DNA of 64,000 nucleotides from Lentzea sp. NEAU-D7 (GTDB taxonomy: Bacteria; Actinomycetota; Actinomycetes; Mycobacteriales; Pseudonocardiaceae), in contig NZ_JAPJDL010000008.1 of NCBI RefSeq assembly GCF_026242055.1, positions 62,001 to 126,000 of the forward strand. The letters run 5' to 3'. The translations under genes were made by a program, and so were the position numbers. Shown one piece after another: positions 27,649 through 45,762 of the stretch. A model generated the notes under the pieces. The model worked only from the letters and a program-made list of their open reading frames with translations. It had not been told where the DNA came from and did not search any database. How positions within the stretch are numbered: position 1 is the first letter of the stretch; every line of letters starts with the position of its first letter.

Positions 27649-30558
27649 GTGCGCAGATGGTTGTGGGGATTGGTTTCCGCGGTACTGGCCAGTGCCGCGG
27701 GTGTGTTCATCAACCTGGCCACCGATTCCGACAGCAAGCCATGGACTTGGTTCGTGGTCGTCGCACTCACACTTCTCATCGGCGCACTTACGGCCCGCGC
27801 CGTGCCCTCCGAGAACGGCCGGGACGACGTTGAGACGTTGCGCGATGTCACCGAAGCCAATCTGCGAGCCTTGGCGGACCATAGTGGCCTTCCTGCTCGC
27901 GGTGTTGGCCGATCCCGAGTGGACCGCGCGGAGCTGGAAGAGCTGCTCCGTACTGAGCGCAGCTTTGTGATCACTGGGGAGCCCGGAAGTGGCAAGTCGG
28001 GTGCGTTGTACGGGATCGCGGAGTCCCTGCGGCAACGTGGCGAGGACGTCGTTTTGCTGACGGTGGAGACCCTAGGCGAGGCAGCTGGGGCGGTGCGTGG
28101 TGACGTGACACTGACGCGCCCTGCACTTGAGGTGCTCAACGGCTGGCAGAGTGAAGAGCGGGGCACGCTGCTAATCGACGGGCTGGACGCGTCGAGGCAG
28201 GGTTCGCTCACCTGGCTGGCGAACCTCGTCGGCGATTTGAATGGGTCTCGCTGGCGGACTATCGCGACGATGCGCAGCTTCGATCTTCGCTATGCCCAGG
28301 TGTGGCGCAATGCGTTCGCCGGGGTGCCGATCTCTGCACGTCGCGCACGACGCGACCCTGAGCTCCGCGATGTCAGGCACGTCGTTCTCGGCGACTTCGC
28401 TGCGGAAGACCTCGAACGGCTGGCGCTTGAGGATGCCACTGTCCGGGCTCTCGTCGAGTACGCCGACGAGGACTTCCTCCAGCTAATCAGGAACCCGTTC
28501 AACCTCAGGCTCGCGTGTCAGCTGCTTCCGTCCGCCGAACCGGTGGCTGCACGCGATCGGCTCGACCTGTTGCAGCGGTACTGGCGCAGGCGGGTGCTGG
28601 ACCAGCCGGACGGTGAGGAACGCGGCCGAGTATTGGGTGCGGTGAGCCAGGAGATGGTGAGGCAGCGCGCGTTGCGGGTGCGGTCGTCGATCATCCCGGA
28701 ATCGTCGCTTGCCGCCCGGCGAGCGGTACTGCGTGACGGCGTGCTGAGGGAGAGCCCGGCGCGGCTGGCGCTGGGAGGAGCAGACATGCTCGTGTTCTCC
28801 CACCACGTCCTGTTCGACTACGCCGTCGCGGCGCTGCTGCTAGCGGAGGGCGACCGGTCACGGCTTCGCGATGCGCTCGACGGCGATCCGAACCTCGTGT
28901 TGGTCGCGCGTCCCAGCATCGACCTCCACCTGGCCGCCGTGTGGCACGCCGACCGCACCCGGCAGGTGTTCGCGGAGGTGGTGATCGGCTTGGCCGAAGC
29001 AGGTCACAGCATCGCTGGCCTCGCGGCCGCATCCGTGCTGGTGCGCGAAACACGTCGTGGCGAAGACCTGCGATGGCTGATCGAGCTACCGGCCGGTCCT
29101 GCGTACTGCGCGATCATCGGCTGGATCGCGGGAGTGATGAGTGCTGCCGAGGACAGGGTGAAGAAGCGTGTTCGTGGCGTATTGGCCCTGTGGGCCTCGA
29201 TCCTGGCCACCGCCGGCACGAGCCTTGCCGACGAATTCGACCATGACCTCGCGAGCCAGTCTCTCCGGCTGATGCACGCCCTGGATGATCTGGATCCGCT
29301 GGGGCCGGGCGTCTCCGGGGCCGAGGAGCGGGCGTTGTTCCTGGTCCAGTTGATGACGGCCTCGCTGCAACAGCCTGCCGAACGGGAGTGGTACGGGCAG
29401 CAGGTGGCCCGCTACCTGCCCAGGGCCTTGGGAGTGAGTCCTGAACCGGCGAACGTCCTACGACGGACTCTCGCCCCAGAGGTCATAAGCGGGTGGCTCA
29501 CGCGCTACCTCGAGTTCTACGTAGACAACGTCGCGCTGATCGCTACGACGGATGCCCAGTTGGCAGAGGACGTGCTGCTGTCGTCCTGGCGTCTGCATGA
29601 CAACAGCGAGGAGATCACGTCGGTGTTGCGAGGCGTTGTGGCGATCACGAGCACGCGAAACCAGGATATCGGGCACGTGAAGTGGCTGATCGGACGGAAG
29701 TTCGAGGCCTACATCGCAGTGGTGGGACTCGAGCGAGCAGTTCCGGTACTGGCCGCCGCGACCACTGCCGAGGCTCCGTATGTGCTCACGCCCGCTTCGT
29801 CTTATCCGGTGGAGGTAGCGACGGCCAGCGGTCGTATCGACGTGGTGGTTGGGTCGCTGAGGCATACCGTTGCCCGGGAGTCTCCGGCGTTGGTGGACGC
29901 TTTCGCGGAGGCCATGCGCGCGAGCAAGTTGTCCGGTTCCGATGCTGACCGACTCGTGGCAGCCATGGTGCGATTGATCAGGCACCCCGAGGCATGGAGC
30001 GGAGTTCTGCACGCGGCCGCGGAAAACTTCGACGTAATCGGCCGCGCGTTCGTTCCAACGTTGCTGGCTGGCGGGCTGTTCATCCACTCGGGCACGCGCG
30101 AGTCCGCCTGCGCACTCGTGCGGGCCGCAGTACCACGGCTCTCCCCATCGGAGCGTCACGTTGTCGACGCGGCGATCCGGGATCTTCCGGCGGACATTGC
30201 GGACAGGATTGCCGAGCTGATCGTGATCGCCGAGCCACTCCCGCCCACCGTCGTCGACGCTGATGAAGCAGCCGTTCCGTTGCCTGAACAGGTGGTCGAC
30301 GACCCGCTCAGACAAGCAATCGATGCGGCCAGCGTCGAGGATGCGGATCCGTCCGCGGTTGGCGCGCTGGAGGCCGAGTTGTGGCGCACGGTCCACGACG
30401 GGCCGGATGAGCGCACTGCGAGCCTCGTCATCTGGGCGGCCGATCTGCTGGTCACGCATCGTCGACCGGATCCAGGCACACCGCTGGGCGAGCTGGTCGT
30501 CAAGCTCTGCCTGGCCGCAGCAGAGACGGAGTCTCCCGAGGACGGAGCGTTGAAGTAG
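27649..30558 (+). CDS. Membrane-anchored NACHT/STAND-like NTPase with helical repeats
   Basis: 969 residues from GTG 27649. Two transmembrane segments (about 5-24 and 32-50) precede an NTPase with P-loop 'GEPGSGKS' (110-117) and Walker B 'TLLIDGLDA' (173-181), then 'TIATMRSFDLRY', a typical sensor strand. The remaining 650 residues look like long helical repeats. Residues that would define an effector are not visible. The stop (30558) lies 2 bp before the next ORF, whose helical pattern looks like a continuation. The upstream GGGGGAGG is about 12 bases from the start. It is probably a ligand-sensing ATPase of the defence type, anchored in the membrane. Confidence 0.8.
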   Translation: MRRWLWGLVSAVLASAAGVFINLATDSDSKPWTWFVVVALTLLIGALTARAVPSENGRDDVETLRDVTEANLRALADHSGLPARGVGRSRVDRAELEELLRTERSFVITGEPGSGKSGALYGIAESLRQRGEDVVLLTVETLGEAAGAVRGDVTLTRPALEVLNGWQSEERGTLLIDGLDASRQGSLTWLANLVGDLNGSRWRTIATMRSFDLRYAQVWRNAFAGVPISARRARRDPELRDVRHVVLGDFAAEDLERLALEDATVRALVEYADEDFLQLIRNPFNLRLACQLLPSAEPVAARDRLDLLQRYWRRRVLDQPDGEERGRVLGAVSQEMVRQRALRVRSSIIPESSLAARRAVLRDGVLRESPARLALGGADMLVFSHHVLFDYAVAALLLAEGDRSRLRDALDGDPNLVLVARPSIDLHLAAVWHADRTRQVFAEVVIGLAEAGHSIAGLAAASVLVRETRRGEDLRWLIELPAGPAYCAIIGWIAGVMSAAEDRVKKRVRGVLALWASILATAGTSLADEFDHDLASQSLRLMHALDDLDPLGPGVSGAEERALFLVQLMTASLQQPAEREWYGQQVARYLPRALGVSPEPANVLRRTLAPEVISGWLTRYLEFYVDNVALIATTDAQLAEDVLLSSWRLHDNSEEITSVLRGVVAITSTRNQDIGHVKWLIGRKFEAYIAVVGLERAVPVLAAATTAEAPYVLTPASSYPVEVATASGRIDVVVGSLRHTVARESPALVDAFAEAMRASKLSGSDADRLVAAMVRLIRHPEAWSGVLHAAAENFDVIGRAFVPTLLAGGLFIHSGTRESACALVRAAVPRLSPSERHVVDAAIRDLPADIADRIAELIVIAEPLPPTVVDADEAAVPLPEQVVDDPLRQAIDAASVEDADPSAVGALEAELWRTVHDGPDERTASLVIWAADLLVTHRRPDPGTPLGELVVKLCLAAAETESPEDGALK

Positions 30559-30560
30559 CG

Positions 30561-31646
30561 ATGATGACTTGGTCTCCTACACCGCGTCGCAGAGCGATAT
30601 CGGGACTCGTCAACCTACAGTGCCGCGCGGAGTGGCGGTCGTCGGAGTACGGCGACGAGATCAGGCGACGCCTGCTGGACGCCGTAGCTGACGAGGACCC
30701 TGTGATCCGGTGGTACGCCGCACATAGCTTGGTCTTCCTCGGTGACGGCGAGGTGGAAAGCCTAGAACTTCTCCAGACCCGATTGCTCGCTGAGCCGCAC
30801 CGTGAGGTGGCGGCTGTGTTGATTCGGCAGATTGCGAGGTTCCAGGACTCCTCCCACGAGAAAATCGACACCGTGCTCAGTGCGGTGCTCGATGTCGAGC
30901 ACTGGCGGACTGTGCTGCAGACGAGAACCCACGAAGGTCACGACGATCGTATCGAGCTGCTATGCGATCTGGTTCTATATCTGGCTTTGCGGTGGCGGAC
31001 GCCCACTGCGACTGCACTTGCTGACAGTTGGTTCAGGTCTCCATCCGACACCGATGCGGCGGGACAGGCGGCGGACCAGTTGCGGCCATGGCTGGAGCTC
31101 GGTGACTACCGGGCCCAAGAACGTGCTCGTGCGTTCGATTTGCTGAAGCTTGGTGCGGCGGCGCTTGAGCAGTCGCGTAATGCGGACCCGACAGCCCGGA
31201 ACGTGCACAGGTGTGCGGATGCGTTGGTCTCTGAGATCTACTTCGCGTCAGGAGCGCACACGAACGGTGACGAGCCGGCGCGGGACCCTGATCCCGGGTT
31301 CGCCCGCGAGGTGTTCGCAGCGTTGGCTCTGCTGACCGGTTTCAAGAGCCCCTCGACCGTGCATCACGCTGTTCGTACACTGTCGCATCTGGCGCCGGTG
31401 GATCCTGCTCGGGCTCTGCGGCTGGTTCAGGACTACGTAAGGTCTGGTGACGCCTACACCTACGACCCGATGGCGTCAGACGTGGTCATCGGGCTCATCG
31501 AACGGTACCTCGCTGAGTTCCGCGACCACCTGACCTCGAACGCCGATCTGCTAACCGCGATTCATTCGTTGCTCGAGGCGTTCGTTCGCGTTGGCTGGCC
31601 TGAAGGTGTGGCTCTGACCTACCGGCTAGGTGACGCGTTCCGCTGA
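30561..31646 (+). CDS. HEAT-like helical-repeat protein, partner or detached C terminus of the NTPase
   Basis: 361 residues of alpha-helical repeats, such as 'RRRLLDAVADEDPVIRWYAA' and 'VHHAVRTLSHLAPVDPARAL', similar to HEAT repeats. It lies in another frame and starts 2 bp after the stop of the NTPase gene. Either it is a separate, translationally coupled subunit, or it is the C-terminal part of one long protein split by a small indel and nonsense codon. The repeat pattern flows across the junction, and 'TWSPTPRRRAISGLVNL' looks like mid-protein sequence, so I lean slightly to a split gene. No catalytic motif was seen. Confidence 0.65.
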   Translation: MMTWSPTPRRRAISGLVNLQCRAEWRSSEYGDEIRRRLLDAVADEDPVIRWYAAHSLVFLGDGEVESLELLQTRLLAEPHREVAAVLIRQIARFQDSSHEKIDTVLSAVLDVEHWRTVLQTRTHEGHDDRIELLCDLVLYLALRWRTPTATALADSWFRSPSDTDAAGQAADQLRPWLELGDYRAQERARAFDLLKLGAAALEQSRNADPTARNVHRCADALVSEIYFASGAHTNGDEPARDPDPGFAREVFAALALLTGFKSPSTVHHAVRTLSHLAPVDPARALRLVQDYVRSGDAYTYDPMASDVVIGLIERYLAEFRDHLTSNADLLTAIHSLLEAFVRVGWPEGVALTYRLGDAFR

Positions 31647-32199: not shown

Positions 32200-34893
32200 G
32201 TGGGGCGCACATACCAGGAGCGAACGCTCAAGATTCTGTTCGGCCGTGCGAACAGGTGCGCCTACCCAGGCTGTGGTCAACAGCTGATCTTCGAAGATCG
32301 TGGCCGCGTCTCCGTCGTTGCCCAGATCGCGCACATCAGGTCTGAGTCGTTCAAAGGCCCAAGGCATGTACCCGGCTACAGAAAGGTCAACTCCGAAGAG
32401 AACCTATTGCTGTTGTGCGGTGTGCACCATAAGCCTGTGGACGACCACGAGTCGACCTATTCCATCGATGAACTCCTCGACTGGAAACGGCTTCAGACCG
32501 CCGGGGGGACTGGACTCGAACTTGCCGATCACCAGCTCTCCCAGGTCATCCGGTTCCTTTCGGAAGTAGCGAGGGGCGTGGTGCAGTCCGGTCTCCGGAT
32601 GCGGAGTCGAGCGGATGCATTGGATATCGCTGCCCGCAAGGCGCGTGCTCGGCGGGTGGATCGCTTGATTCCGTTCGTGCCGGAGGAGCGGTTGGATGCA
32701 GTGCTGGCCTGGATGAAGGGCCTTGACGATCCGATTGTGGACGTCCCGGCCGGCAGCGTCCGAGTGCTCGTGGCACCGCTCGGTGCAGGGAAATCGGAGC
32801 AGGCACTTCGCTGGTGGGAGGACGGCCTGCAGACAGCCGCCGATGATCCTGAACACGAGCTCCCTCAGTACTTCACCGCTCGCACGGTAGTAGACGTACT
32901 GGAGCAGTCGATCGCGGATAACCTGGGTGGGGATCCGGTGCGTCGCTGTCGCGTCGTCGTCGACGAGCTCGACGGCGTGTCGATCGCAGAAGCCTCAGGC
33001 ATCTTGAGCGAAGCACGGCAACTGGTGCAAGTGTGGCCCCAAGTCAGCATTCTCGCCACCACGCGTCCAGGTATTCCGTTGGGGGACAAGGAGAAGATTG
33101 TCGTTCCGCGATGGACTGTCGACCGCGGGGCGGCCCTTGTTGAACTCGCGCTCGGCGACTACGTTCCTCACCGCTTGTGGACCGCCGAGACGTCTGATCT
33201 CTTGACGAGCCCGTTGACCGCCTTGGCACTGGCTGCCCGTGTACATGCCGGTCGGGACACCAAGGTGACGAGATCTCAGCTTCTCGCAGATCTTGCTACT
33301 CAAGTCCTGGAATCACACGGCAAAGATGTCTCCGACGACACGTGGAACGATCTCGCCAGGCTTGCTGTCGCCGTCCTGGAGGAGCCGTACCTCGCCGAAG
33401 GCCGTCGGTTCGGACCGCCGCCACGGGTGCGCCGGCTCATAGAGACTGGTCTCGTCGTCCATGACGGACGCCAACTGACGTTCGCGCTGCCTGTGTTCGA
33501 GCAGTACTTCGCTTCCCAGGCTATCGCGTTGGGACTGGTGAGCTTGAACGACGCAGCTGGGGCGCGAGCGTTTCCCCGATGGCGATATGCACTGGCCTTC
33601 GCCGTCACAACTGCGGCACCGCGTCGGCAGGAGGAACTGCTGACGACCCTCGCGAGGGTGAACCCGGCCGCCGCGTTCTGGGTGCTCGGTGAGATCGCCT
33701 CCAAGGAGCACCAGTCGCTGGAGGGACCGCCCGAGGAGGCGATCGCGGCCTTGCTCCGACGCCGCGACGTCACAGGCGGCGCGGTGGAGCCTGATCTTGC
33801 GATCAGGGCTGGTCTGTGGCTCCGTGACGCGGAGAAGGCCTTGCTCCAAGGGATCGGCCCGCTCGCGCATCGACTCGCTCGCCATCGTGACGGGCAATTG
33901 ACGCAGTGGGGCGCCTGGCTGAAAGGCGGCCGGTTCACGCTCGCCCGCGCCCGTGACAGAGTGCCGCCTCCGGAAGTGATCAGGCTCGCCGAACCTCGCG
34001 CGCACCTATCCCAGGGATGGCATCGATCGACCAATTTCAGTTTTCCGACGGCGGACTTCGGGCGTTGGCAGCTTGCGCAGGACAGCCTGCAGAGGGAGCT
34101 GAACACCACGATCACACGCCGGAAGTTGCAGGTGCCGCCGAATTCGTGGCTCGCGCGTGAACGCACGTTCTGGCTCGGGAAGTTCGTGGTCGACCACGGT
34201 CGCGGCAGACCGAGCCGGTTCATCAACGTAGCCGAGCTCCGGGAAACGGTTGCTGCTTGGAAGGAACGAGCGGACGCGGCACAGTTGATGAGGTGGGGCT
34301 CGAGCAGTGGTCGCGAAGTCGATGGTGATGATGACATCCGGTGGTTGTCCGCCCAGCTCGCGACCGAGGAGAGCGACGTGCTGGCGGCGCCTTGGCCAGA
34401 AGGGGACATAGATCATCGCGGAAGGTGGGTCTGGCAGGGATACTCGCCAGAGCTCACTTTGACCTTGGCCACGGCAGTGGTGCGTGAGGCGTTGGTCGGC
34501 TATCGGCAACTCGTGGAGCAGAACTTTCCGACGTTTGGCGACGCGCTGGGCCTGTACAGCATGATGCCGCTTCGAGTCGACGGCCTGGTAGGCAGATTCG
34601 CTGAGGACGAAGACGCAACCGCTGTCGAGCTGCGACTCCTTCTCGATCCCACGCCGACGTCCGCAGACAACGAAAGCCCGCCGGTCCACATGCGACTGAT
34701 CACCAGCCGCGATGACCAAACCTTCTGGGAGTTCGGACGCGATCGCCAGCAGATCACGCGTGCCGCGTTCAAGCAGCACGTTGTCCAGGACATCGATCTG
34801 CCGTTGCACGACTCCTGCGCCGCAACGACCGTCGCTTACGAATGGTTGGCTCGCGATCTCGCGGCTGTCGGTTGGCTCAAGGAGCGCTGGTAG
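32200..34893 (+). CDS. HNH nuclease fused to a STAND-like NTPase
   Basis: 897 residues. The N terminus is a zinc-stabilised HNH domain: Cys20/Cys25 ('CAYPGCGQQ'), catalytic His45 ('AQIAHIRSES'), Asn68 ('EENLLLLCGVHHKPVDD') and Cys73/His76. A linker follows, then an NTPase with a slightly degenerate P-loop 'APLGAGKS' (192-199), Walker B 'RVVVDELD' (251-258) and 'SILATTRPG'. The last 500 residues look helical and may form the sensor; 'LVVHDGRQLTFALPVFEQYF' resembles the winged-helix end of NACHT/STAND modules. The architecture suggests a nuclease held inactive until the NTPase senses a trigger. GTG 32200 starts directly before the HNH domain. A strong hairpin follows the stop. Confidence 0.85.
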   Translation: MGRTYQERTLKILFGRANRCAYPGCGQQLIFEDRGRVSVVAQIAHIRSESFKGPRHVPGYRKVNSEENLLLLCGVHHKPVDDHESTYSIDELLDWKRLQTAGGTGLELADHQLSQVIRFLSEVARGVVQSGLRMRSRADALDIAARKARARRVDRLIPFVPEERLDAVLAWMKGLDDPIVDVPAGSVRVLVAPLGAGKSEQALRWWEDGLQTAADDPEHELPQYFTARTVVDVLEQSIADNLGGDPVRRCRVVVDELDGVSIAEASGILSEARQLVQVWPQVSILATTRPGIPLGDKEKIVVPRWTVDRGAALVELALGDYVPHRLWTAETSDLLTSPLTALALAARVHAGRDTKVTRSQLLADLATQVLESHGKDVSDDTWNDLARLAVAVLEEPYLAEGRRFGPPPRVRRLIETGLVVHDGRQLTFALPVFEQYFASQAIALGLVSLNDAAGARAFPRWRYALAFAVTTAAPRRQEELLTTLARVNPAAAFWVLGEIASKEHQSLEGPPEEAIAALLRRRDVTGGAVEPDLAIRAGLWLRDAEKALLQGIGPLAHRLARHRDGQLTQWGAWLKGGRFTLARARDRVPPPEVIRLAEPRAHLSQGWHRSTNFSFPTADFGRWQLAQDSLQRELNTTITRRKLQVPPNSWLARERTFWLGKFVVDHGRGRPSRFINVAELRETVAAWKERADAAQLMRWGSSSGREVDGDDDIRWLSAQLATEESDVLAAPWPEGDIDHRGRWVWQGYSPELTLTLATAVVREALVGYRQLVEQNFPTFGDALGLYSMMPLRVDGLVGRFAEDEDATAVELRLLLDPTPTSADNESPPVHMRLITSRDDQTFWEFGRDRQQITRAAFKQHVVQDIDLPLHDSCAATTVAYEWLARDLAAVGWLKERW

Positions 34894-35671: not shown

Positions 35672-36964
35672 TCAGGAGTCGGTCCAGGGAGGAAGAAACG
35701 AGGGCACCTGGACCTCTGGCGGTGTCAGGGGAGCGGTGTCGAGTCCGATGTGGGCGGCGTATTGGAGGATCGTGCGCCAGTCGCCCTGGGCGACGGTATG
35801 GGTTGGGCAGTTGCGGCATTCGCCGCGGCGTGCGCAGGCGCTGGTGCGGTCAGTCTGGTTTCGGATGTGGTTGAACGCACTGAGCGGGTCGTCGGCTTTG
35901 ACGAGGAACCAGGTGCCGCTGCGCCGGTCGGTGGGCAGTCCGGCGGTCACCGCAGTGCTGCGGGGCGGGTCGATGTGGTCACCGTGGTGACGAATCGCAA
36001 AGTGGCGGTCGAGCATGTCGGCCTTGTCGCCCTCGGGCTGGTGCGTCTGGGTCCAAGCATGCGCATGGTCGATGGAACCAGGTCCCCATAGCAGTTGCAC
36101 TGGACGGTGTGTGGACTCGAACCGAGGGTCGTATCCGAGCAACTGCTCGAGGTCCTCGGCTACCGCGCGCACGAGTACGCAGGTCGAATCTGGTGCCATC
36201 TTCCCGGTTGGCTTGTAGTCGTCGCCGCCGATTTCCACTCGTCCGGTGTTGTCCCAGGCGATGAGCAGCACCGACCTGTGCACGGGCGCGGGGTGCAGAC
36301 GCCCACCGGGAGTCCGAACGCCCCATAGGCAGTTGATGATCTCGGCCAGGTCGCGGATGACCCGTGCCGCGTCGCCAGGAGTTCCAAGGTGATATCCGGA
36401 AGGGTGCGCGACTATGTTGCGCAGCGAGACCTGTACACGCTGCATGCTTCTGGCCCGCTGGCCGGGCAGAAGCCCTTCCCGTCGTGCCCACTCCCACAAG
36501 GCGCTCAACATGCCGTCGAACACCATCGGCTTGCCGGGCGCGGCTAGCTTGAGCCGCCATGGAGTGCGCCGCTGCTTGAAGGCGGCCAGCACTTGGTCGA
36601 ACGTGGACGCGTCCACGGTACGTTCCAGCCCGCTGGAAGCGTGTACCTGGACGATGCGGTGTTCGTAGAAGGCCAGGAACCGGTCGCGCAGAGCGTGCTC
36701 GACGACTAGGCGCGCGGTGTCTCCGGCGAGGGTGAAGAACTCATACCGCAGCACGCCGTAGAGGTAGAGAGTGCGCAGGGCCTCGAAGTGTTGGCGAGTG
36801 CCCTCGGCGACCTCGTCGACCAAGTCGGTGCCGGTCAGCAACGTGTGCTGATAGGCCAGGGCAGCTTCCGGCGTGAGCATGTGAGTGATACCCAAGCCGA
36901 AGGGGGTGCAGTGCTGTGTGCGCTCGTCGGGTGCGCGCAGCTCCTCCATGGTGGGAGCGATCAC
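35672..36964 (-). CDS. Unknown protein with a HEPN-like Rx4H motif
   Basis: 430 residues from GTG 36964, which has GAGGAG seven bases upstream; ATG 36949 is an alternative. A mostly helical N-terminal half ends in 'QRVQVSLRNIVAHPSGYHLG', where Arg182-Asn-Ile-Val-Ala-His187 fits the Rx4-6H active-site motif of HEPN ribonucleases. The C-terminal half contains 'GPGSIDHAHAWTQTHQPEGD', 'GTWFLVKADDPLSAFNHIRN' and a Cys-rich segment 'CARRGECRNCPTHT' that could bind zinc. HEPN assignment rests on one motif in a helical context and needs structure prediction. It stands alone between IS debris in the island, which fits a toxin or defence role. Confidence 0.65.
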   Translation of the reverse strand: MIAPTMEELRAPDERTQHCTPFGLGITHMLTPEAALAYQHTLLTGTDLVDEVAEGTRQHFEALRTLYLYGVLRYEFFTLAGDTARLVVEHALRDRFLAFYEHRIVQVHASSGLERTVDASTFDQVLAAFKQRRTPWRLKLAAPGKPMVFDGMLSALWEWARREGLLPGQRARSMQRVQVSLRNIVAHPSGYHLGTPGDAARVIRDLAEIINCLWGVRTPGGRLHPAPVHRSVLLIAWDNTGRVEIGGDDYKPTGKMAPDSTCVLVRAVAEDLEQLLGYDPRFESTHRPVQLLWGPGSIDHAHAWTQTHQPEGDKADMLDRHFAIRHHGDHIDPPRSTAVTAGLPTDRRSGTWFLVKADDPLSAFNHIRNQTDRTSACARRGECRNCPTHTVAQGDWRTILQYAAHIGLDTAPLTPPEVQVPSFLPPWTDS

Positions 36965-37087
36965 AGGCTTTCTCCTCAACGTGTCCGCTGCCGGCTGTGG
37001 CGGCCGTGCCGACCGGAGGTCAGCTGAGCAGGATGCCATACCCCTCCGGCTTCTGCTCATCAAAGCGCCGGGGTGGCGACGAACCGA

Positions 37088-37284
37088 TCGGGTGGGATCG
37101 CCGCTCCTGGCGCACCCGCGACGAGGCCGAGAACGAGCTCTTCCGCTATATCGACGGGTTCTACAACACCGAACGCATCCAGAAGGACCTCGGCTGGCTC
37201 AGCCCCGACGAGTACGAAACCGCCTGGCACACCACCCGAACGGAACCGACTACCATCCCGGCATCACCGACCGCAGTCAGGTAA
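37088..37284 (+). pseudogene. IS3-family OrfB transposase, C-terminal fragment
   Basis: 'RTRDEAENELFRYIDGFYNT' followed by 'RIQKDLGWLSPDEYETAW' is the typical end of IS3-family OrfB proteins (final Glu of the DDE triad lost upstream; 'YNxxRxxxxLGxxSPxEYE'). About 60 residues remain. The stretch from 37285 to about 37530 has no recognisable gene and may contain the IS right end. Confidence 0.85.
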
Positions 37285-37529: not shown

Positions 37530-37780
37530 CAGGGAGTTCGGCGGGGCGTACAGCGGCCACCTGATCGACCAGTTCCCGCACGAGACCACCGACGGCGCCA
37601 AGATCGCCTCGTACATCGCCCCCGGTAACGACCAGCTGATGCGCCGCACCGACCGCAACGGCCAGATCTGCCACTGGATCCTGGAGATCGACCTCGTCGA
37701 CCGGGACAAGGAGATCGGCGGGTTCTACGAGGAACTACTGGACCTCGGCCCTTCGGAGTTCACGCTCAAGTCGTCCGCGC
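37530..37780 (+). pseudogene. C-terminal fragment of an M24 (Xaa-Pro) peptidase
   Basis: 'REFGGAYSGHLIDQFPHETT', 'YIAPGNDQLMRRTDRNGQIC' and 'HWILEIDLVDRDKEIGGFYE' follow the C-terminal pattern of bacterial M24-family aminopeptidase P homologues ('SGHLIGxFPHE...PMRxxDxxGxxRHWILEIHLVDR...IGGFFE'). No start or N-terminal metal-binding part is present. The fragment runs into the end of the HNH gene on the other strand. Recognition is from memory. Confidence 0.6.
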
Positions 37781-38767
37781 GCCTTTTCGGACATTGCACA
37801 GCCAGTGGGCGAGCTGTGTATTGGCGCGACAGTGGTTGCCACCCGCCACGAGTGGCAACACGTGGTCGAGGCTCTTGCTCTCGGGATGCGGCCACGCCAG
37901 CGTGCGGTCCACGGGCCGGAGGCACAGCTGGCAGACCCACCCGTCCCGCTCATAGATCTCCTCAGGATCGAACCGCTCGACGACAGCGTCTTCGAGCCTG
38001 ACCCGTCGCGCGTGCCGAGACTTCGTGGACGTCTCGCGCTTGCGCTTCTCGCTCAACGCGGTACGTGCCGGCGACCACCAGTCGCCGCGGTACGGCGAGT
38101 CGGCGGGCGCAGCGACCAACGCTTCCCAGTTGAACTCCTGGCCGTCTGGGGTGACGTCGCGGATGCGTTCCCAATGCCATCGGAGCAGCTGGCCGCCGCT
38201 CGTGAACGTCGCCTCGTTGCGTGGCTCGCCTTGCGGCCCGAAGTAGCCGATCTGCAGGCGCGTGAGGTCCCAATCGGCGGTGGCGCCGCAGATGAACTGT
38301 TGTCTGCTCCGCAGCTCCATTGCGATCAGCACGTGGTCCGGCCACCAGTTCGGCCACGCCTCCTCGGTGGCGCGACTGAGCAACGCGTACCCGACCAGGA
38401 CGCCATAGCGCTCAACCAGATCTCCTTGGCGGACACCGAACCCTTCCCACTCGAACGGTGGTTCCTGCCCGTTGATCGTGCGGAAGATCCGCGGACCGCT
38501 CGTCCGCGGATTCGTCATCTTCGCGGGAGCACCGAGTTCGCGGCCGTGTAGATCCAGGTCGCCGGTGTTCTTGATGAGTCGGTTGATCTGTCGACCCAGG
38601 TTGGAGTTGCAGCGCGTACCGCAGACATGCCGGTCTCGATGCTTCCAATGCGCGTTGGCCGGGACCGGTTCCGAGCACTTGACGCAGGGCTCGCCACCCT
38701 TCGCGCGTCCTTCCGGGTGCATCAGCAACGCGTCGCGCCAGTCCCAGTACGACAGATCGTCGGGCAT
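37766..38767 (-). CDS. HNH endonuclease with N-terminal zinc ribbon
   Basis: 333 residues. Residues 28-53 hold a zinc-ribbon-like set Cys28/Cys31 ('CVKCSEPV') and Cys49/Cys53 ('CGTRCNSN'). The middle region has no known pattern ('GFGVRQGDLVERYGVLVGYA'). The C-terminal 60 residues are an HNH domain: 'WVCQLCLRPVD', 'SLDHVLPLVAGGNHCRANTQ' and 'AHWLCNVRKG', with the metal-site His, Asn and final His in place. It probably cleaves DNA; a role in defence is suggested only by location. No methylase gene is adjacent, so a classic restriction-modification pair is not supported. Confidence 0.85.
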   Translation of the reverse strand: MPDDLSYWDWRDALLMHPEGRAKGGEPCVKCSEPVPANAHWKHRDRHVCGTRCNSNLGRQINRLIKNTGDLDLHGRELGAPAKMTNPRTSGPRIFRTINGQEPPFEWEGFGVRQGDLVERYGVLVGYALLSRATEEAWPNWWPDHVLIAMELRSRQQFICGATADWDLTRLQIGYFGPQGEPRNEATFTSGGQLLRWHWERIRDVTPDGQEFNWEALVAAPADSPYRGDWWSPARTALSEKRKRETSTKSRHARRVRLEDAVVERFDPEEIYERDGWVCQLCLRPVDRTLAWPHPESKSLDHVLPLVAGGNHCRANTQLAHWLCNVRKGARTT

Positions 38768-38832
38768 CCGATCAGCCTCGCAAAGAGTTGATCACGTGAC
38801 AACGATGCATGCGTGCAGGAATCTGGAGGTAA

Positions 38833-38870
38833 CCCGATCGGCCTAACGTCGCGCGTCAGAGCCGATCGGG
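38833..38870. terminator. 10-bp inverted repeat, possible terminator
   Basis: CCCGATCGGC (38833-38842) and GCCGATCGGG (38861-38870) form a perfect stem with an 18-base loop. It lies just downstream of the minus-strand remnant ending at 38884 and between oppositely placed genes, which suits a terminator. No T tract is present. Confidence 0.5.
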
Positions 38871-38883
38871 ATCGCCAGGACGG

Positions 38884-39075
38884 CTAGAGCTTTCGGAGTA
38901 CGTGGAACGGCACCAGCTGATCGACCAGGTACGGCTTGTCCCGGCGGCGTAGTCGATCTCGTAGCTCACGACGCCGAGCCAATCGCCCTCGACACCGGGG
39001 AAGCGACCGTGGAGCCGAGCATCGGGTCGATCCAGGCGGGAACGGAGCCGTGAGCCACGCGCATGGCGACCTCCT
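38884..39075 (-). pseudogene. Short decayed ORF of unknown family
   Basis: Protein-like sequence on the minus strand is split over frames: one gives 'GDWLGVVSYEIDYA' and another gives 'RDKPYLVDQLVPFHVLRKL', ending in TAG at 38884. Together they read like one short C-terminal stretch with at least one frameshift. The family is not recognised. The remaining bases between 38768 and 39130 contain no other gene-like pattern. Confidence 0.4.
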
Positions 39076-39133
39076 CCAGGCGCGCCTTGAGCGGTCTCGC
39101 ATCGGCTTAGTGCGTAGGCGTCGGCGTGGTCTG

Positions 39134-39184
39134 TTACCCGTGGGGACGTCCGGCCGTAGAATCAGTCGGACATTTCGTGAGGAG
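39134..39184 (+). promoter_or_regulatory. Likely promoter and ribosome site of the REase-TPR-PIN gene
   Basis: TTACCC (39134-39139) and TAGAAT (39157-39162) are separated by 17 bases, a sigma70-like arrangement with a good -10 and weak -35. GAGGAG (39179-39184) sits five bases before ATG 39190. The leader would be short, about 20 bases. Confidence 0.5.
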
Positions 39185-39189
39185 CGCCC

Positions 39190-42100
39190 ATGCCGATGGC
39201 CGGGGGCCCGGCCGACAAGGTGGGCAACCGATACGAGCGGCGCTGGGCGGTACGCGCGATGCTCGATGTGATCGCCGGCGTCGCCGAGTCACTGCGCATC
39301 GAGGTGCCCGGCGAGGAGGGCGCGGGTGCCGAGTTTCGACTAATCGTCGGCGGAACGCCGTACTGGTACCAGTCCAAGCGGCAACGCGACACGGGGGCTT
39401 GGACGATCGCGGCGATGGCCAACGAGGGCTTCCTCCAAGCCTGGCTCCCAAAGCTCCAGGCAGGTGGGCACTGCGTCTTTGCCTCGGGTACTAGTGCTGA
39501 TGAACTGCGCGAATTGTGTGAACGAGCGAGAGATGCCCAAACATGGGCGGAGTACGACGAACATTTCCTCGTCGCGGAGCAGCAGCGAACCAGATTCACT
39601 CGCTTACGCAACCTTTGGGTCGGAATCGACGACGAGCACGTCTTCAAGAACCTACGACGGGTTGACGTCCAAACCATGGACGAACGCAACCTCGCTGAGC
39701 TGGTCCGGATACGCCTGGGCGGCCTTGTCGACGGCCATCCCGACACGGTCAACGACATCCTGGGGCAGTTCGCCGATGACCAGATCCATCGGGAGTTGGA
39801 AGCGGCTGATCTTTGGCGACATCTTGAAGGCCGAGGCATACACCCGACGGCGCGGGCCGCGCCCACAGCACGTCGATCAGGTGGCCTACCAATCGCTGCC
39901 ACAGCACCATCGACGCAGGCAGCTGCCGATGAACAGCAACTGCGGGATCGCCTTGATCAGCTGCCACCACTAACCCATTCCAGACTCGAGGCCTCCTGGC
40001 ACGACGATCAGGCACGAACATGGAGACTAGTCACCACCCTGACCAGTATGGACGCCCTGCCCCGCGACGTGGTCGACGAATGGCAGGACGCCGCACCGCA
40101 ATGGCTGATCGACGCACCTTGGCAAGTCCAGATTGCGGCCGGTGAACTCGCCACTGCATACGGGGCACGGCGCCTCGCTGGCGACCTGTTCGTTCGGGCC
40201 GCTCGGGAAGGAGTCCCGCGCCGTCATCGCTGGCTTGCCCGGGCCGCGCTACTGTTCGACAACATTGACGACCCAGGTCGTCGCGACGCGGCCCTGACCG
40301 CGAACGGCCGATGCGCCGACAGCACGGACCCGTTAGCGCGTGCGGTTGCTGCCCTGTTCGAGGGCGACCTTGCAGGGGCATCGGCCCACCTGCAGGAGTG
40401 GGTTCCCGATGACCCTATGGAGCAGGCCGTCCGGTCAGGCTTTGCACTGCGATTGGCTGTTGGCGATCCGGAGGAACCCTTCAGCGTGGCTTCGCTGGAG
40501 GCCGCCCTAGAGGTGACCGGCCGCGCCCTCGACCAGCAGTGGACGTCGGGTTTGGCCATTGCCCGGGCTCGGATGCTGATGTACCGCGCACGGCTGGGCG
40601 ACTCACCGGCACTGTATCGGGACCTGCAGCAAGCCCGCGATCTTGCAGTTCGTGCCCGCGATGAACGGCGCGCTTGGCGTGGCGACAGCGCCGAGCCCAC
40701 GGCTCTCGCCTGCCAGGCGGCGGTTCTCTCGATCGATCTCGTCGGTGCTATCCGCCTGGGCACGCCTGGCGAGGACGGCGCAACCGCGGCAGAGGCGAAT
40801 ACGCCCGAGGTGCGCGAGTACGTGGCCGTCGCGGCAAGCCAACTTGGCGATCTTTCCTTGGCACGGGCGTCGGCCGAACACCTCACAGACCCGTTCGCCC
40901 GGGCCCGCGTTGACGCGCTTCTCGCTGAGGCGAGTGGCACCGACTCCGTACCTCACTGGCGGCAAGCCGTTGCCCTCGCCGGTGATAACGACGAGCGGCT
41001 TGCCCAAGCACTTACCGGATACGCGATGGCTGCCCAAAGCCAGGACGTACCTGGGCTCGACCAGTTCGCGGCACGCTATCCCGAGGCGGGCGAACAGATC
41101 CGGGCCATGGCCGAACTGTCCGCAGGCAATCCAGGTGCGGCCATTAACCGGCTGCGAGGTCAGCGGCGCACCTCGATCACTGCCGCGCTGAGTCTCGCCC
41201 AGGCATACAGGACCTCCGGACAGATCGATCGCTGCGTAACCACGCTATTGGAGGCCGCAGGCGACTTCCACGACCCTTCCCTGCGCTACAGCGCGGCAAC
41301 CACCCTCGCCGAAGCCGGTCGGACCATCGAAGCTGAGCAGGAGCTGCAGTCACTGTTGGCCGTGACAGCAGATGACTGGCCGGGAAGGGCCGACGCGGTC
41401 AGATCCGCCGCGCAGCTCGCTTACGGACGTCACGACCTTCATCGTGCCACCGAACTACTGCAGACCTTGATGCGGCTCGCGCCGACCGACGAGTCGAGTC
41501 GCTGGGCCCTTGTCCATATCCTCATGCGACGCAGCGACCTCGCCGCCGCGTGGCGCACACTCACCACGGCCCCGCACCCACTGGAAGCGCGCAACGTCGG
41601 CGAAGCGCAGATGTGGATCGAGCTTCACCGTCGCTTCGGCCCGGCTGACGAGACGGTTAACGGATCGATTGCTCTGCTACGCCGTTTCGGCACGTCAGAA
41701 CAATTCAGCGCCTACGTCCTCACGTCGCTACTGGCTCCCGGTTCCTCACGAGACCCGCTGCCACCCGCAGTCCTCGCCGACTTCCACCGGGCGATCGACG
41801 CCTTCTTCCAGCAGTGGCCCGACAGCCCCTACCTGCGCAGGATCAGCACCGACGACACCACCGAACTCCTCGCTCGCCTCACCGAGATGGTCACACCGTC
41901 TGAGGAAGAACTCGTTCGCCGGCGGCGTTTGACCCGAGATCTCATGATCGGACGTCTTCCGCTGGGCATCCTCACCCAGGCAATCAAACGGAGTTACACG
42001 GAGATCATTGTCCGTCGAGGCGTCGGGATCATTCCTGCGCTCCATCCCGACCAGCGCGAGTTCACCGCTTCCATGGCTGCGGTCAGGCGGGCCATCGACA

Positions 42101-43155
42101 AGGACGTAGCGATCGGAATCGACGCAGTCGCCGTTTTCGCCACGCTGCCAGCCGACGTTCAGGAGTTGGCCGCGCGCAGCTTCAGTCGGCTCGTCACCAC
42201 CGATGACGTTTTGCGCGACGTCCGCAACGGTCACGACAGTCTTACCCAGCGGACCACGGCGACCTGGTTCTATGACGTTCATGCCCGGTCTGGGCGGATG
42301 GCCGAGGTGTCGGAGGCCGAGGCCGACCGGCTCGCTCGTCAATCAGCCCAGTTGCTGGCAATGATCCAGGGACTCACCCGTTACCCGCGGCCGGCCTGCC
42401 GCGCGGTCCTGGATACCGATGAGCCGGCCTTCGCCGGTTGGATGTCTGTTATCGACCTGGCGCTCGACCAACAGATACCCATTTGGACAGACGATCACGT
42501 GTTGCGGTCCATTGCGCGTCAAGTTGGGCTCTCCGCTCTATCCACCCCAGCGCTACTCGCTTACCTGTTCGAGCAAAGCGTCCTGACGTCCGATCGCCAC
42601 GAGGATGCCGTTCGCTCAATGATCAAAGCGCGGGTGGGTGACTTTCCCGTCAACGGCCAGCGCCTCATGGAGCTCGCTGAGGACGAAGAATGGGCACCGG
42701 TGTCAGTCGCGGTTGTCCTTTCACGTCCGGCGGCATGGACCAACAGGTCACGTACCGTCACCCTGTTCGCCGACCTGCTCCAATCCTCGCGCCCATATCG
42801 CCCCATGGACGCGCCGGACTGGCTCTACGCCGCCATTGTTGGCGCAACACTCGCCGCCGCCGATCCCTTCACGGCCACCGACATCGCCGCACGCTTGCTC
42901 GCCCTCGCACTTGAGAACACGGCCGCCCAAGGCGCACTAGCGTCCAAGCTCGTGACGGCCGCCCGACGAGCGCTTGCTGACAGCGACGATGTTGACCAGC
43001 ACGCCTCCGACCCGCTACCACTGAGCGCCACCCTTCTCCGTAACGCCTATTCGATCGCCCTTCCACCGTCCATCGCCACCAGCTACGTACTTGCAAGCCT
43101 CAGCGAGCTGAGCGATACCGACCGCCAAACGGTGCTGCGAGCCCTGCTGCAGTAA
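39190..43155 (+). CDS. Giant REase-like / TPR / PIN-like fusion protein
   Basis: 1,321 residues. The N terminus resembles Cap4/DUF4297-type PD-(D/E)XK nucleases: 'GNRYERRW' (Glu16), 'GAEFRLIV' (Glu48) and 'YWYQSKRQ' (Gln61, Lys63). Residues about 240-960 are helical, TPR-like repeats ('AYRTSGQIDRCVTTLLEAAG'). Near 970-1140 is a PIN-like pattern: 'VAIGIDAVAVFATLP' (Asp978), 'RLVTTDDVLRDVR' and 'PIWTDDHVLRSIARQVGLSA' (Asp1101, Asp1102). No ATPase is present. Two nuclease-like ends joined by a sensor-like middle suggest a self-contained defence protein. Domain ends are approximate, and PIN and REase assignments are inferred from motifs only. Confidence 0.8.
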   Translation: MPMAGGPADKVGNRYERRWAVRAMLDVIAGVAESLRIEVPGEEGAGAEFRLIVGGTPYWYQSKRQRDTGAWTIAAMANEGFLQAWLPKLQAGGHCVFASGTSADELRELCERARDAQTWAEYDEHFLVAEQQRTRFTRLRNLWVGIDDEHVFKNLRRVDVQTMDERNLAELVRIRLGGLVDGHPDTVNDILGQFADDQIHRELEAADLWRHLEGRGIHPTARAAPTARRSGGLPIAATAPSTQAAADEQQLRDRLDQLPPLTHSRLEASWHDDQARTWRLVTTLTSMDALPRDVVDEWQDAAPQWLIDAPWQVQIAAGELATAYGARRLAGDLFVRAAREGVPRRHRWLARAALLFDNIDDPGRRDAALTANGRCADSTDPLARAVAALFEGDLAGASAHLQEWVPDDPMEQAVRSGFALRLAVGDPEEPFSVASLEAALEVTGRALDQQWTSGLAIARARMLMYRARLGDSPALYRDLQQARDLAVRARDERRAWRGDSAEPTALACQAAVLSIDLVGAIRLGTPGEDGATAAEANTPEVREYVAVAASQLGDLSLARASAEHLTDPFARARVDALLAEASGTDSVPHWRQAVALAGDNDERLAQALTGYAMAAQSQDVPGLDQFAARYPEAGEQIRAMAELSAGNPGAAINRLRGQRRTSITAALSLAQAYRTSGQIDRCVTTLLEAAGDFHDPSLRYSAATTLAEAGRTIEAEQELQSLLAVTADDWPGRADAVRSAAQLAYGRHDLHRATELLQTLMRLAPTDESSRWALVHILMRRSDLAAAWRTLTTAPHPLEARNVGEAQMWIELHRRFGPADETVNGSIALLRRFGTSEQFSAYVLTSLLAPGSSRDPLPPAVLADFHRAIDAFFQQWPDSPYLRRISTDDTTELLARLTEMVTPSEEELVRRRRLTRDLMIGRLPLGILTQAIKRSYTEIIVRRGVGIIPALHPDQREFTASMAAVRRAIDKDVAIGIDAVAVFATLPADVQELAARSFSRLVTTDDVLRDVRNGHDSLTQRTTATWFYDVHARSGRMAEVSEAEADRLARQSAQLLAMIQGLTRYPRPACRAVLDTDEPAFAGWMSVIDLALDQQIPIWTDDHVLRSIARQVGLSALSTPALLAYLFEQSVLTSDRHEDAVRSMIKARVGDFPVNGQRLMELAEDEEWAPVSVAVVLSRPAAWTNRSRTVTLFADLLQSSRPYRPMDAPDWLYAAIVGATLAAADPFTATDIAARLLALALENTAAQGALASKLVTAARRALADSDDVDQHASDPLPLSATLLRNAYSIALPPSIATSYVLASLSELSDTDRQTVLRALLQ

Positions 43156-43214
43156 GGCGTCACCGAGCTCAGTAAAGTCGACCACCTGAATGCATGGGCG
43201 TAGCGGCGTCGGCC

Positions 43215-43755
43215 CTGTGCGTGCCGGGAAATGCGTCCGTGCAGGTCAGCAGGCGTCGGTGGATAGCGGTCATCATCCGGCATGATCGCGGCCGCGATGG
43301 TCCGCTTCGCCTATCTCGTCGTCTCCCAGGATTATGACGGGATCTGTTGTGATCAGCAGCCGTCGCTGACGGCTTGTCGCGGCGACTGGCAAGATGGTGA
43401 TCTCCGGCTGGCAAGGGAGGCAGGCTGGGATGGAAGAGGGCCGGTCGACACGATTCAATCTTTCGTCGCTAGGTTCTGGTGACTGAGGTCAAGAACGTTC
43501 GCGGCGAACTGCTGGACGGCACGCTGATGCGGAATCAGGCCCACCTGCGCAAGCACTGTGTGAGTACGAGCGGCACCACAACGAGCACCGCACCACCGAT
43601 CACTCTGGCGCGGCACTCCTGTAGATCCGGCCTCAGCCTGTCGAACCCGCTCAGATCGAACGCTTGGCCACAGACCGACTAGATCTTCTCGGCAGAGTCA
43701 TCCAGGACTATCGCCATGCCTCGAATTGCATGGACGTAGTTTTCGGCACGCACAG
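43215..43755 (+). mobile_element. Internally deleted IS copy 3 with both ends
   Basis: The left end 'CTGTGCGTGCCGGGAAATGC' (43215) and transposase start 'MIAAAMVRFAYLVVSQ' (from 43283) match the copy at 26.9 kb. The right end is the inverted sequence ending at 43755 ('TTCGGCACGCACAG'). Just before it, one frame reads 'CEYERHHNEHRT', a stop, then 'PQPVEPAQIERLATDRLDLL', the C-terminal end of the transposase. The middle, including the catalytic core, is deleted. This copy defines the terminal inverted repeat of the family. No target duplication was seen. The rest of 43156-44009 has no recognisable gene. Confidence 0.8.
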
Positions 43756-44009
43756 GTTCGGACAGGGACCAGCGTCAGCCGGGCTGGCGCGTGGTGGATA
43801 GTCGGCTGCGTGACTACCGCCGCTGAGAGGATCAGTTCCGAAGGAGGGCAGAGCCAGGCATCCATGTCAGTTTGTGTCGGGAGAGATGGGGTCCTCAGAC
43901 AACAGGAATTTGACCAGTCCAGCTCCTGATCTCGTCAGGGTGAAGCGTTTCTGTCCGCCTACGCCGGCCCACTCTTGACGACCTGTGGGGTCTTGAAGTC
44001 GCTGAGGAC

Positions 44010-45698
44010 GTGTTGGACGGCATCGGGCCGGTGGCGCTCTACGGGCGCTGTTCGACCGAGGACAACCAGGATCCGAAGACCTCTCGCGGCTGGCAGTTCG
44101 GGAACGCGACGAAGTTCGTAGAGCCCTTCGGCGCGGAAGTTGTCGCGGAGTTCTTCGACATTGGCCAGTCGCGTTCGGTGCCCTGGGATCGGCGGCACGA
44201 GGCATCGCGACTGCTGGCGGAGTTGAAGAATCCGCGCCGCGGCTGGCACGCGGTGGTAGTGGGTGAGGGGACGCGGTGCTGGTTCGGCAACCAGTTCTCG
44301 CTGATCGCTCCGCGGTTCGAGGCGTACGGCGTGGACCTGTGGGTGCCGGAGTTGGGCGGCAAATACGACCCGCGAAACCCCTCGCACAAGATGCTCATGA
44401 GCGTGCTCGGAGGTATGAGCGAGTCCGAGCGCCAGCACGTGCAGGCACGCGTCCGCGCCGCGATGGACGCCCAGGTGGTCAACGAGGGGCGACATCAGGG
44501 CGGCCGAGCGCCCTACGGGTTCGTCACGGTGGACGGCGGGCCGCATCCGAACCCAAAGAAGGCTGCTGAGGGGTTCCGGCTGCGAGTTCTGGCGGTCGAT
44601 GAGTTCTGCGCGGCGGTCGTTCGGCGCATCTTTGCCGAGTACATCGCGGGCATGGGAGACCGTGCTATCGCGGAGGGGCTCAACCGGGATGGGATTCCGT
44701 GCCCGTCGAGGCAGAAGCCTGAGCAGAACAAGCATCGCCTTGCGGACGGCTGGCAGGGCAGCACTGTCCGGGTGATTGTCGAGAACCCGAAGTACACGGG
44801 GTATGCGTTCTTTGGGCGTTGGACGCGTCACGAGGTGCTGCTTGATCCCGATGACGTGGCCGCTGGTCACGTGGTGCGATTCCGTCGCGCGGCGCCGGAC
44901 AAGGTTGTTCGGTCGAGGATGCCGGCGCATCCGCAGATCATCAGCGTGGAGGAGTTCACACAGGCGCAATTGATCCGGCAGGGCAAGGGCGCTGGTGGGC
45001 TGGCGACAGCGTGCAAAGCGGAACGGTCGGGACGGCCGACGAAACGGCCGTACTTGTTCCGCGGTCGACTGCGGCATGCCGAATGCCAGCGAAAGATGGA
45101 GGGTGCTCCGCGCAAGGCCATGTACTACCGGTGCGCCAGCCGGACGTTGGTCCCAGGCTCTGAGGTGGCTGGCGAACATCCTCCGTCGGTCTATTTGCGC
45201 GAGGACGTGTTGACCGAGGCGGTCAATGCCTGGATCGGCGGTTTGTTCGCACCCGAGAACGTGGATCGAACGGTCGCGGCGCTGCTGGAGGCGCAGGAAC
45301 CCGAGAAGCGGAGCGAGACTAAGCACGGTTCGGCCCGTCAGCGGCTGACAAAGGCGGAGGAGGAATTGAAGAGGTTCCAGAACGCGATCAAGGCGGGCGT
45401 CGATCCGGCGGCACTGGTCGAGGGGATCAACGAGGCACAGGCGAGTCGGGCGGTTGCTCAGGCTGAACTCGTGGACGTGCCGACCGCGCGCGGGTTCGAG
45501 GCTGCCGAGATCCAGGCCATGATCGATGCGCTCGGGGACGTGGGCGCCAAGCTGGCTGACGCCAAGCCTGAGAGCCTCGCTGACGTCTACAAGCGGCTTG
45601 ACCTGCAAGTCCTCTATACGCACATTGGCCGTGAGGCTGATGTTTCCATCAATCTCACGGCCAATGTGGGTAATGCTTATGTCCGAGGGGGGACTTGA
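44010..45698 (+). CDS. Large serine recombinase (integrase)
   Basis: 562 residues. The resolvase-type catalytic domain begins 'VALYGRCSTEDNQDPKTSRG' with nucleophile Ser15, followed by 'SVLGGMSESERQHVQARVRA'. The recombinase domain has 'GGRAPYGFVTVDGG', 'AIAEGLNRDGIPCPS' and 'WQGSTVRVIVENPKYTGY'. A reduced zinc-ribbon region ('LRHAECQRKM', 'YYRCASR') and a coiled coil near 430-480 complete the family layout. GTG 44010 starts it. The last six codons lie inside the 3' end of the tRNA-Leu gene on the other strand. This is the expected position for the integrase of the element to its left and implies site-specific insertion at the tRNA. Confidence 0.92.
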   Translation: MLDGIGPVALYGRCSTEDNQDPKTSRGWQFGNATKFVEPFGAEVVAEFFDIGQSRSVPWDRRHEASRLLAELKNPRRGWHAVVVGEGTRCWFGNQFSLIAPRFEAYGVDLWVPELGGKYDPRNPSHKMLMSVLGGMSESERQHVQARVRAAMDAQVVNEGRHQGGRAPYGFVTVDGGPHPNPKKAAEGFRLRVLAVDEFCAAVVRRIFAEYIAGMGDRAIAEGLNRDGIPCPSRQKPEQNKHRLADGWQGSTVRVIVENPKYTGYAFFGRWTRHEVLLDPDDVAAGHVVRFRRAAPDKVVRSRMPAHPQIISVEEFTQAQLIRQGKGAGGLATACKAERSGRPTKRPYLFRGRLRHAECQRKMEGAPRKAMYYRCASRTLVPGSEVAGEHPPSVYLREDVLTEAVNAWIGGLFAPENVDRTVAALLEAQEPEKRSETKHGSARQRLTKAEEELKRFQNAIKAGVDPAALVEGINEAQASRAVAQAELVDVPTARGFEAAEIQAMIDALGDVGAKLADAKPESLADVYKRLDLQVLYTHIGREADVSINLTANVGNAYVRGGT

Positions 45699-45730
45699 AC
45701 CCCCACCCCCTTTCGGGGACTAGCACCTCA
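45680..45730. other. Probable attachment site (tRNA-Leu 3' half)
   Basis: The recombinase ends within the 3' end of the tRNA, the usual outcome when an element integrates there and its arm restores the gene. The core of the duplicated att sequence should lie in this stretch. I found no second copy of it by eye to the left in the window, so the other end of the element is unlocated or degraded. Confidence 0.4.
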
Positions 45731-45762
45731 AGCTAGCGCGTCTGCCATTCCGCCACCCGGAC
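45680..45762 (-). tRNA. tRNA-Leu (GAG anticodon)
   Basis: The minus-strand sequence folds as a class II tRNA: acceptor GTCCGGG pairs with CTCGGAC (45681-45687); anticodon stem CTAGC/GCTAG encloses TTGAGGT (anticodon GAG); variable arm CCCC-GAAA-GGGG; T arm GGGGG-TTCAAGT-CCCCC. No CCA is encoded. The gene appears intact even though the recombinase ORF runs 19 bases into its 3' end. Confidence 0.95.

Follow-up and report, generated by a model that had tools for sequence, protein, structure and literature searches.

The window analysed here, a 64,000-nucleotide stretch of a contig of Lentzea sp. NEAU-D7, carries on its forward strand a gene for a single protein of 1,321 residues (Table 1). The frame is open from an ATG codon, and the ribosome site that a preliminary description of this DNA had ascribed to it is present as a ribosome-binding-site-like AGGAG. 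Eighteen homologues of the core of the protein (residues 250–1321) are found in actinobacterial genomes and plasmids (L005, L020, L021, L022, L027, L062–L069 and L086–L090). In 16 of them the alignment spans 986–1,069 core residues, with 601 in L067 and 854 in L089, so that the frame is not a chance one. The GC contents at the three codon positions, 0.72/0.51/0.72, are similar to those of three other genes of the putative island described below, the third-position value being the lowest of the four. The gene had also been credited with its own promoter. This claim finds no backing in a scan covering the sigma-70 type alone, which gave 0 sites in 38700–44100 for 0.5 expected by chance. No ATPase or NTPase family of Pfam matches the protein at E ≤ 1, in agreement with the absence of an ATPase switch noted earlier. 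Neither PADLOC nor PHROGs has a model for it.

Table 1. Coordinates of the gene, its parts and its neighbours in the window
Feature	Position	Strand	Basis or remark
PDC-M54A-like pieces	27649–30558 and 30561–31646		profile positions 261–1088 and about 1252–1657
Gene with HNH-effector-like start	32200–34893		first 100 residues match PDC-M68A and SAVED-HNH effector models
IS remnant, rve_2	36916–37284		Pfam match
HNH endonuclease gene	37766–38767	-	just upstream of the gene at 39190–43155
Ribosome-binding-site-like AGGAG	39180–39184	+	direct reading of the sequence; 5 bases ahead of the ATG
Whole gene (1,321 residues)	39190–43155	+	ATG start; homologues of the core
Residues 1–225, Cap4/DUF4297-like PD-(D/E)XK nuclease (predicted)	39190–39864	+	AF2 model; Foldseek/VIA
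Active-site motif E38 ... E48 ... Q61-x-K63	39301–39378	+	alignment
Residues 250–900, TPR-like helical repeat region	39937–41889	+	weak TPR matches; TPR matches of homologues; partial model
Residues 901–968, helical linker with conserved P924-x-G926...Y936...R943; expected place of GreA/B-C	41890–42093	+	model, alignment
Residues 970–1135, PIN domain	42097–42594	+	PF20698, predicted fold
Codon of G976, first PIN acid position	42115–42117	+	alignment; D/E in 17/17 relatives
Residues 1155–1321, helical C-terminal region	42652–43152	+	AF2 model
Large serine recombinase at island end	44010–45698	+	PF07508, PF00239
tRNA-Leu (GAG), putative integration site	45680–45762	-	3′ end repeated ~60 kb upstream, same contig

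A putative island at a tRNA-Leu gene

The surroundings of the gene had been described as containing IS remnants and a recombinase, and both are indeed present, in the form of the rve_2 remnant and of the large serine recombinase. The recombinase gene overlaps the tRNA-Leu gene. Further upstream on the same contig (C42:47666–47706), 41 bases are 93% identical to the 3′ end of this tRNA and the bases preceding it, with 28 consecutive identities. This repetition points to an island of about 60 kb lying between the two repeats and taking in positions 1–45680 of the window. Ahead of the left repeat, in turn, lies a copy of the 3′ end of the recombinase gene (353 bases at 80%), which suggests that two elements were inserted in tandem at one tRNA.

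In the closest relative at the site (G411), similarity begins exactly at 45680 and continues rightward at 93%, and the 11.9 kb examined leftward have only short repeats in common with the window or the stretch upstream of it. In another genome (G405), a homologue of the N-terminus of the protein (L024) sits between its own tRNA and a 27-base tRNA-like repeat. The site of the island has the appearance of a defence hot spot. Some 300 bases at 43435–43756, perhaps a transposase remnant, recur several times in the island and also near the G405 repeat (L103 1769–2091, L104 6881–7156, L106 207–530).

Other defence candidates are found on the putative island within a few kilobases of the gene. Judging from their profile matches, the two PDC-M54A-like pieces look like one receptor split into two genes and devoid of its N-terminal effector. 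The product of the gene with the HNH-effector-like start displays a GxGKS-like (P-loop-like) stretch, read by eye, and no NTPase family in Pfam; it is perhaps an HNH-STAND defence protein.

The N-terminal domain and its exchange between cores

The N-terminus had been proposed to be REase-like, with a PD-(D/E)XK fold. Pfam detects no nuclease family in this region and PADLOC gives no match. The AF2 model of the domain has a mean pLDDT of 84, and the Foldseek/VIA search relates it to LmuA, Avs3, Cap4 and HerA-DUF4297. Modelling and structural matches agree in supporting a Cap4/DUF4297-like PD-(D/E)XK fold. Residues E38, E48, Q61 and K63 are invariant in all 11 aligned N-terminal sequences, which upholds the earlier choice of E48 and K63 as active-site residues. 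A profile of the N-terminus (A5) also matches, at the same place, a solved structure, that of an AAA family ATPase (9n00_A, E 0.0035). The latter protein has 1,523 residues and is described in entries 9n00, 9n01 and 9yix.

The relatives of the N-terminal domain continue differently from the window protein. The two sequences with 46–47% identity to it in alignment, L071 and L072, both run on into AAA/STAND-type domains. Among the 13 N-terminal relatives found, seven were scanned with Pfam and all seven have NTPase matches at E ≤ 0.1, above the curated cut-off in three of them (L073, L023 and L007). One effector domain is thus common to NTPase receptors and to the core of the window protein, where no ATPase is detected.

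Conversely, homologues of the core begin with other domains. A DUF4365 N-terminus is found in L020, L022, L062, L067 and L068, an Aga-REase match in L021, a phosphorylase (PNP) with an HTH in L069, and a PDC-M54A-like start in L089; no family matches the N-termini of the remaining ten. Besides that of the window protein, at least three N-terminal types thus occur among the 18 homologues. The core is 46.6, 45.0, 43.9 and 45.8% identical to those of L063, L064, L086 and L089, respectively, whereas their N-termini are unlike that of the window protein (12.6–24.9% over a forced alignment). These comparisons indicate that the putative N-terminal effector is exchanged between similar cores. For L063, L064 and L086, three of the nearest core relatives, the N-terminus has no library match in the scans made (L063 also has no PADLOC match), and L086 is seemingly shortened at its start.

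The window protein is rare in the genus and phylum samples. In the phylum sample, the whole protein used as query matched 4 of 396 genomes, two of them by the N-terminus only, and PF20698 matched 2 of 296. The C-terminal profile at E ≤ 1e-10 matched 6 of 394 genomes of the class sample, and the N-terminus 6 of 298 of the order sample. All these counts include the genome itself. A first six-row profile reached 32 of 298 order-sample genomes at E ≤ 0.001, many of the matches being partial. Within the genus, 7 of 24 genomes, own included, have a match of any kind; the core is confined to the genome itself and to G402. Six plasmid records were matched: four through the N-terminus, one from Arthrobacter through the core and one from Streptomyces through the PIN region. 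The Arthrobacter plasmid is mobilizable.

The TPR-like and PIN regions

A conflict system with TPR, GreA/B-C and PIN domains, of which PF20698 is the PIN, was predicted by Kaur et al. (2021; PMC8195603). As described there, these three domains form a constant core that is combined with EAD10 or with an effector from a set of 13 that includes REase, and an action on RNA polymerase was proposed on the basis of computational prediction; WP_017307658.1 is a canonical member (PMC8195603). The locus had been put forward as a candidate for an undescribed system. This no longer holds, given that a TPR–GreA/B-C–PIN system whose N-terminal effectors are interchangeable, and count an REase among them, had already been predicted (PMC8195603).

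The TPR-like middle proposed in the preliminary description is probable. Taken alone, the window protein gives TPR signals under the Pfam cut-offs (ANAPC3, E 5e-4; TPR_19, E 0.0022), whereas TPR models exceed the cut-off in homologues L067 and L068. An AF2 model covering residue 815 onward is helical over residues 815–900.

At the expected place of the GreA/B-C domain, nothing of the kind was detected. PF01272 gives no match at E ≤ 1 in the window protein or in any of the 17 homologues scanned with Pfam (all 18 but L021), and does detect two GreA-type genes elsewhere in the same genome. Profile comparison with these two GreA-type sequences gives probabilities of 0.09% and 0.04%, a weak comparison resting on just two rows. 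In the model, the region ahead of the PIN domain (815–968) is helical. A strongly diverged GreA/B-C domain is conceivable, the positive control being limited to these two GreA-type genes and the evidence from the model to residues 815–968. Because GreA/B-C was not found, the window protein is placed in a PF20698 TPR–PIN family rather than as a full member of the TPR–GreA/B-C–PIN system; for the same reason, the action on RNA polymerase proposed in print may not hold for it.

The PIN-like C-terminus is upheld. PF20698 scores 37.2 bits for a cut-off of 27.8 (E 4.3e-9), and together with the fold of the model this supports a PIN domain on the C-terminal side. In the 17 homologues scanned, PF20698 is above its cut-off in 14, below it in L068 and L089, and missing in L067, which is without PIN. 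In L089 (4815–10265) the frame breaks within the PIN domain, and a separate frame encodes what remains of the C-terminus.

The active site of this PIN domain lacks one expected residue. At the first acid position the window protein has a glycine, G976, for a D in 15 (L063 among them) and an E in 2 of the 17 relatives having the region. D978, earlier proposed as a catalytic acid, lies two residues past this usual place and is therefore not the expected residue. Of the other acids, D1010 and D1102 are conserved in 18/18 sequences and D1101 in 17/18; at position 1089, 11 of the 18 have D, 3 have E and 4 have Q, L or T. Judging from these residue states, PIN catalysis may be weak or lost in the window protein. 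Both nuclease-like ends announced by the preliminary description are thus retained as folds, and it is the role of the PIN domain as a working second nuclease that G976, set against D or E in 17/17 relatives, makes doubtful.

Proposed mode of action and relation to described systems

What the analysis shows are the modelled folds, the exchange of domains, the state of the active-site residues and the position on the putative island; activation, substrate and antiviral effect are inferred, as follows. The window protein would probably act on its own as an antiviral (conflict) system of the PF20698 TPR–PIN family, in which a constant core is joined to a swappable Cap4/DUF4297-like nuclease. The TPR-like solenoid and the PIN-bearing C-terminus would form the sensing and regulatory core, and would keep inactive an N-terminal effector whose relatives are borne by STAND/AAA-type NTPases, as in Avs receptors. 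Binding of a phage product (a protein, a nucleic acid or an altered transcription complex) to the solenoid/PIN region would cause a conformational change or multimerisation without an ATPase. The N-terminal domain would then cut DNA and thereby end the infection, with the cell probably lost in the process. Since the first PIN acid is a glycine in this copy, the PIN domain may have no activity, which would make the N-terminal DNase the likely weapon; RNA binding or a structural role would be likelier for the PIN domain than cleavage.

A different division of labour may be envisaged, in which the target of the core is RNA polymerase or transcripts, RNA cleavage falls to the PIN domain and the N-terminal nuclease acts as a back-up. 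Either D978 or the set D1010/D1089/D1101/D1102 would then suffice for catalysis. This scheme matches the published model (PMC8195603) and is in line with the conservation of D1010, D1102 and D1101. Against it speak G976, a position occupied by D or E in all 17 others, and the failure of Pfam to detect GreA/B-C either here or in the 17 homologues scanned, the region expected to hold it being helical in the model; we regard it as unlikely. The same glycine might mark a decaying gene, an island copy in which the PIN active site would be the first function to go, and relatives that are broken (L089) or short of a PIN domain (L067) do exist. Against decay, 1,321 codons are open behind a ribosome site, E38, E48, Q61 and K63 are intact, and codon-position GC resembles that of other island genes, which leaves this explanation quite improbable.

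The island itself might be the beneficiary, the protein serving for instance to exclude plasmids or rival elements rather than phages. The adjoining recombinase, the island ends and the core homologue on a mobilizable plasmid of Arthrobacter are consistent with such a role, but the other island genes match phage-defence candidates and we give the idea little credit. The rarity of the protein and the lack of a PADLOC or PHROGs model for it weigh against an antiviral system, and the core could also be a regulator that merely happens to sit on the island.

Returning to the favoured reading, that of a constant core with a swappable nuclease, the window protein belongs to an already-predicted kind. 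It shares with the TPR–GreA/B-C–PIN system the PF20698 PIN, a probably TPR-like core, a swappable N-terminal effector and a single-gene organisation (PMC8195603). It is a variant in three respects: the effector is of a type common to STAND/AAA-type (Avs-like) receptors, GreA/B-C is detected neither in it nor in its scanned relatives, and a glycine, G976, takes the place of the first PIN acid. The same fold of N-terminal nuclease, with a long body behind it, is found in Avs-type STAND receptors with Cap4-like N-termini (Avs3, 8dgc) and in PDC-M54A; in the window protein, however, this body is of the TPR–PIN type and no STAND/AAA domain is detected. Sequence identity to Cap4 (CBASS), LmuA (Lamassu), HerA-DUF4297 and the nuclease subunit of Hachiman (HamA) is just ~8–13%, and, unlike in these systems, neither a SAVED domain nor a helicase or SMC partner was recognised for the window protein. 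Finally, DS-3, a one-protein PIN system of DefensePredictor, likewise has its PIN domain in a single protein without antitoxin, likened here by description only, but this PIN is split between the N and C termini (PMC13092281).

In a bolder version, the TPR–PIN core, free of GreA/B-C and, here, of PIN catalysis, would be a pure sensor unleashing an interchangeable STAND-type DNase, that is, an ATPase-free counterpart of Avs. We advance this tentatively and hold it to be rather doubtful. If it were true, the same effector domains would plug into ATP-driven and ATP-free sensors in actinobacterial islands.

Among the matches listed in the open-licence PMC literature, no experimental work on the TPR–GreA/B-C–PIN system was found. 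The branch to which the window protein belongs sits badly with the mechanism published for that system, since no RNA-polymerase-binding domain was detected and the PIN domain of the window protein is without an expected acid. A direct test therefore becomes possible, of whether the PIN domain or the swapped N-terminal effector is the weapon and of any role of transcription. The value of the variant is that it separates the PIN domain from the swapped effector. By joining a nuclease domain common to STAND/AAA-type receptors to an ATPase-free core, it also bears on the exchange of effectors among bacterial immune receptors.
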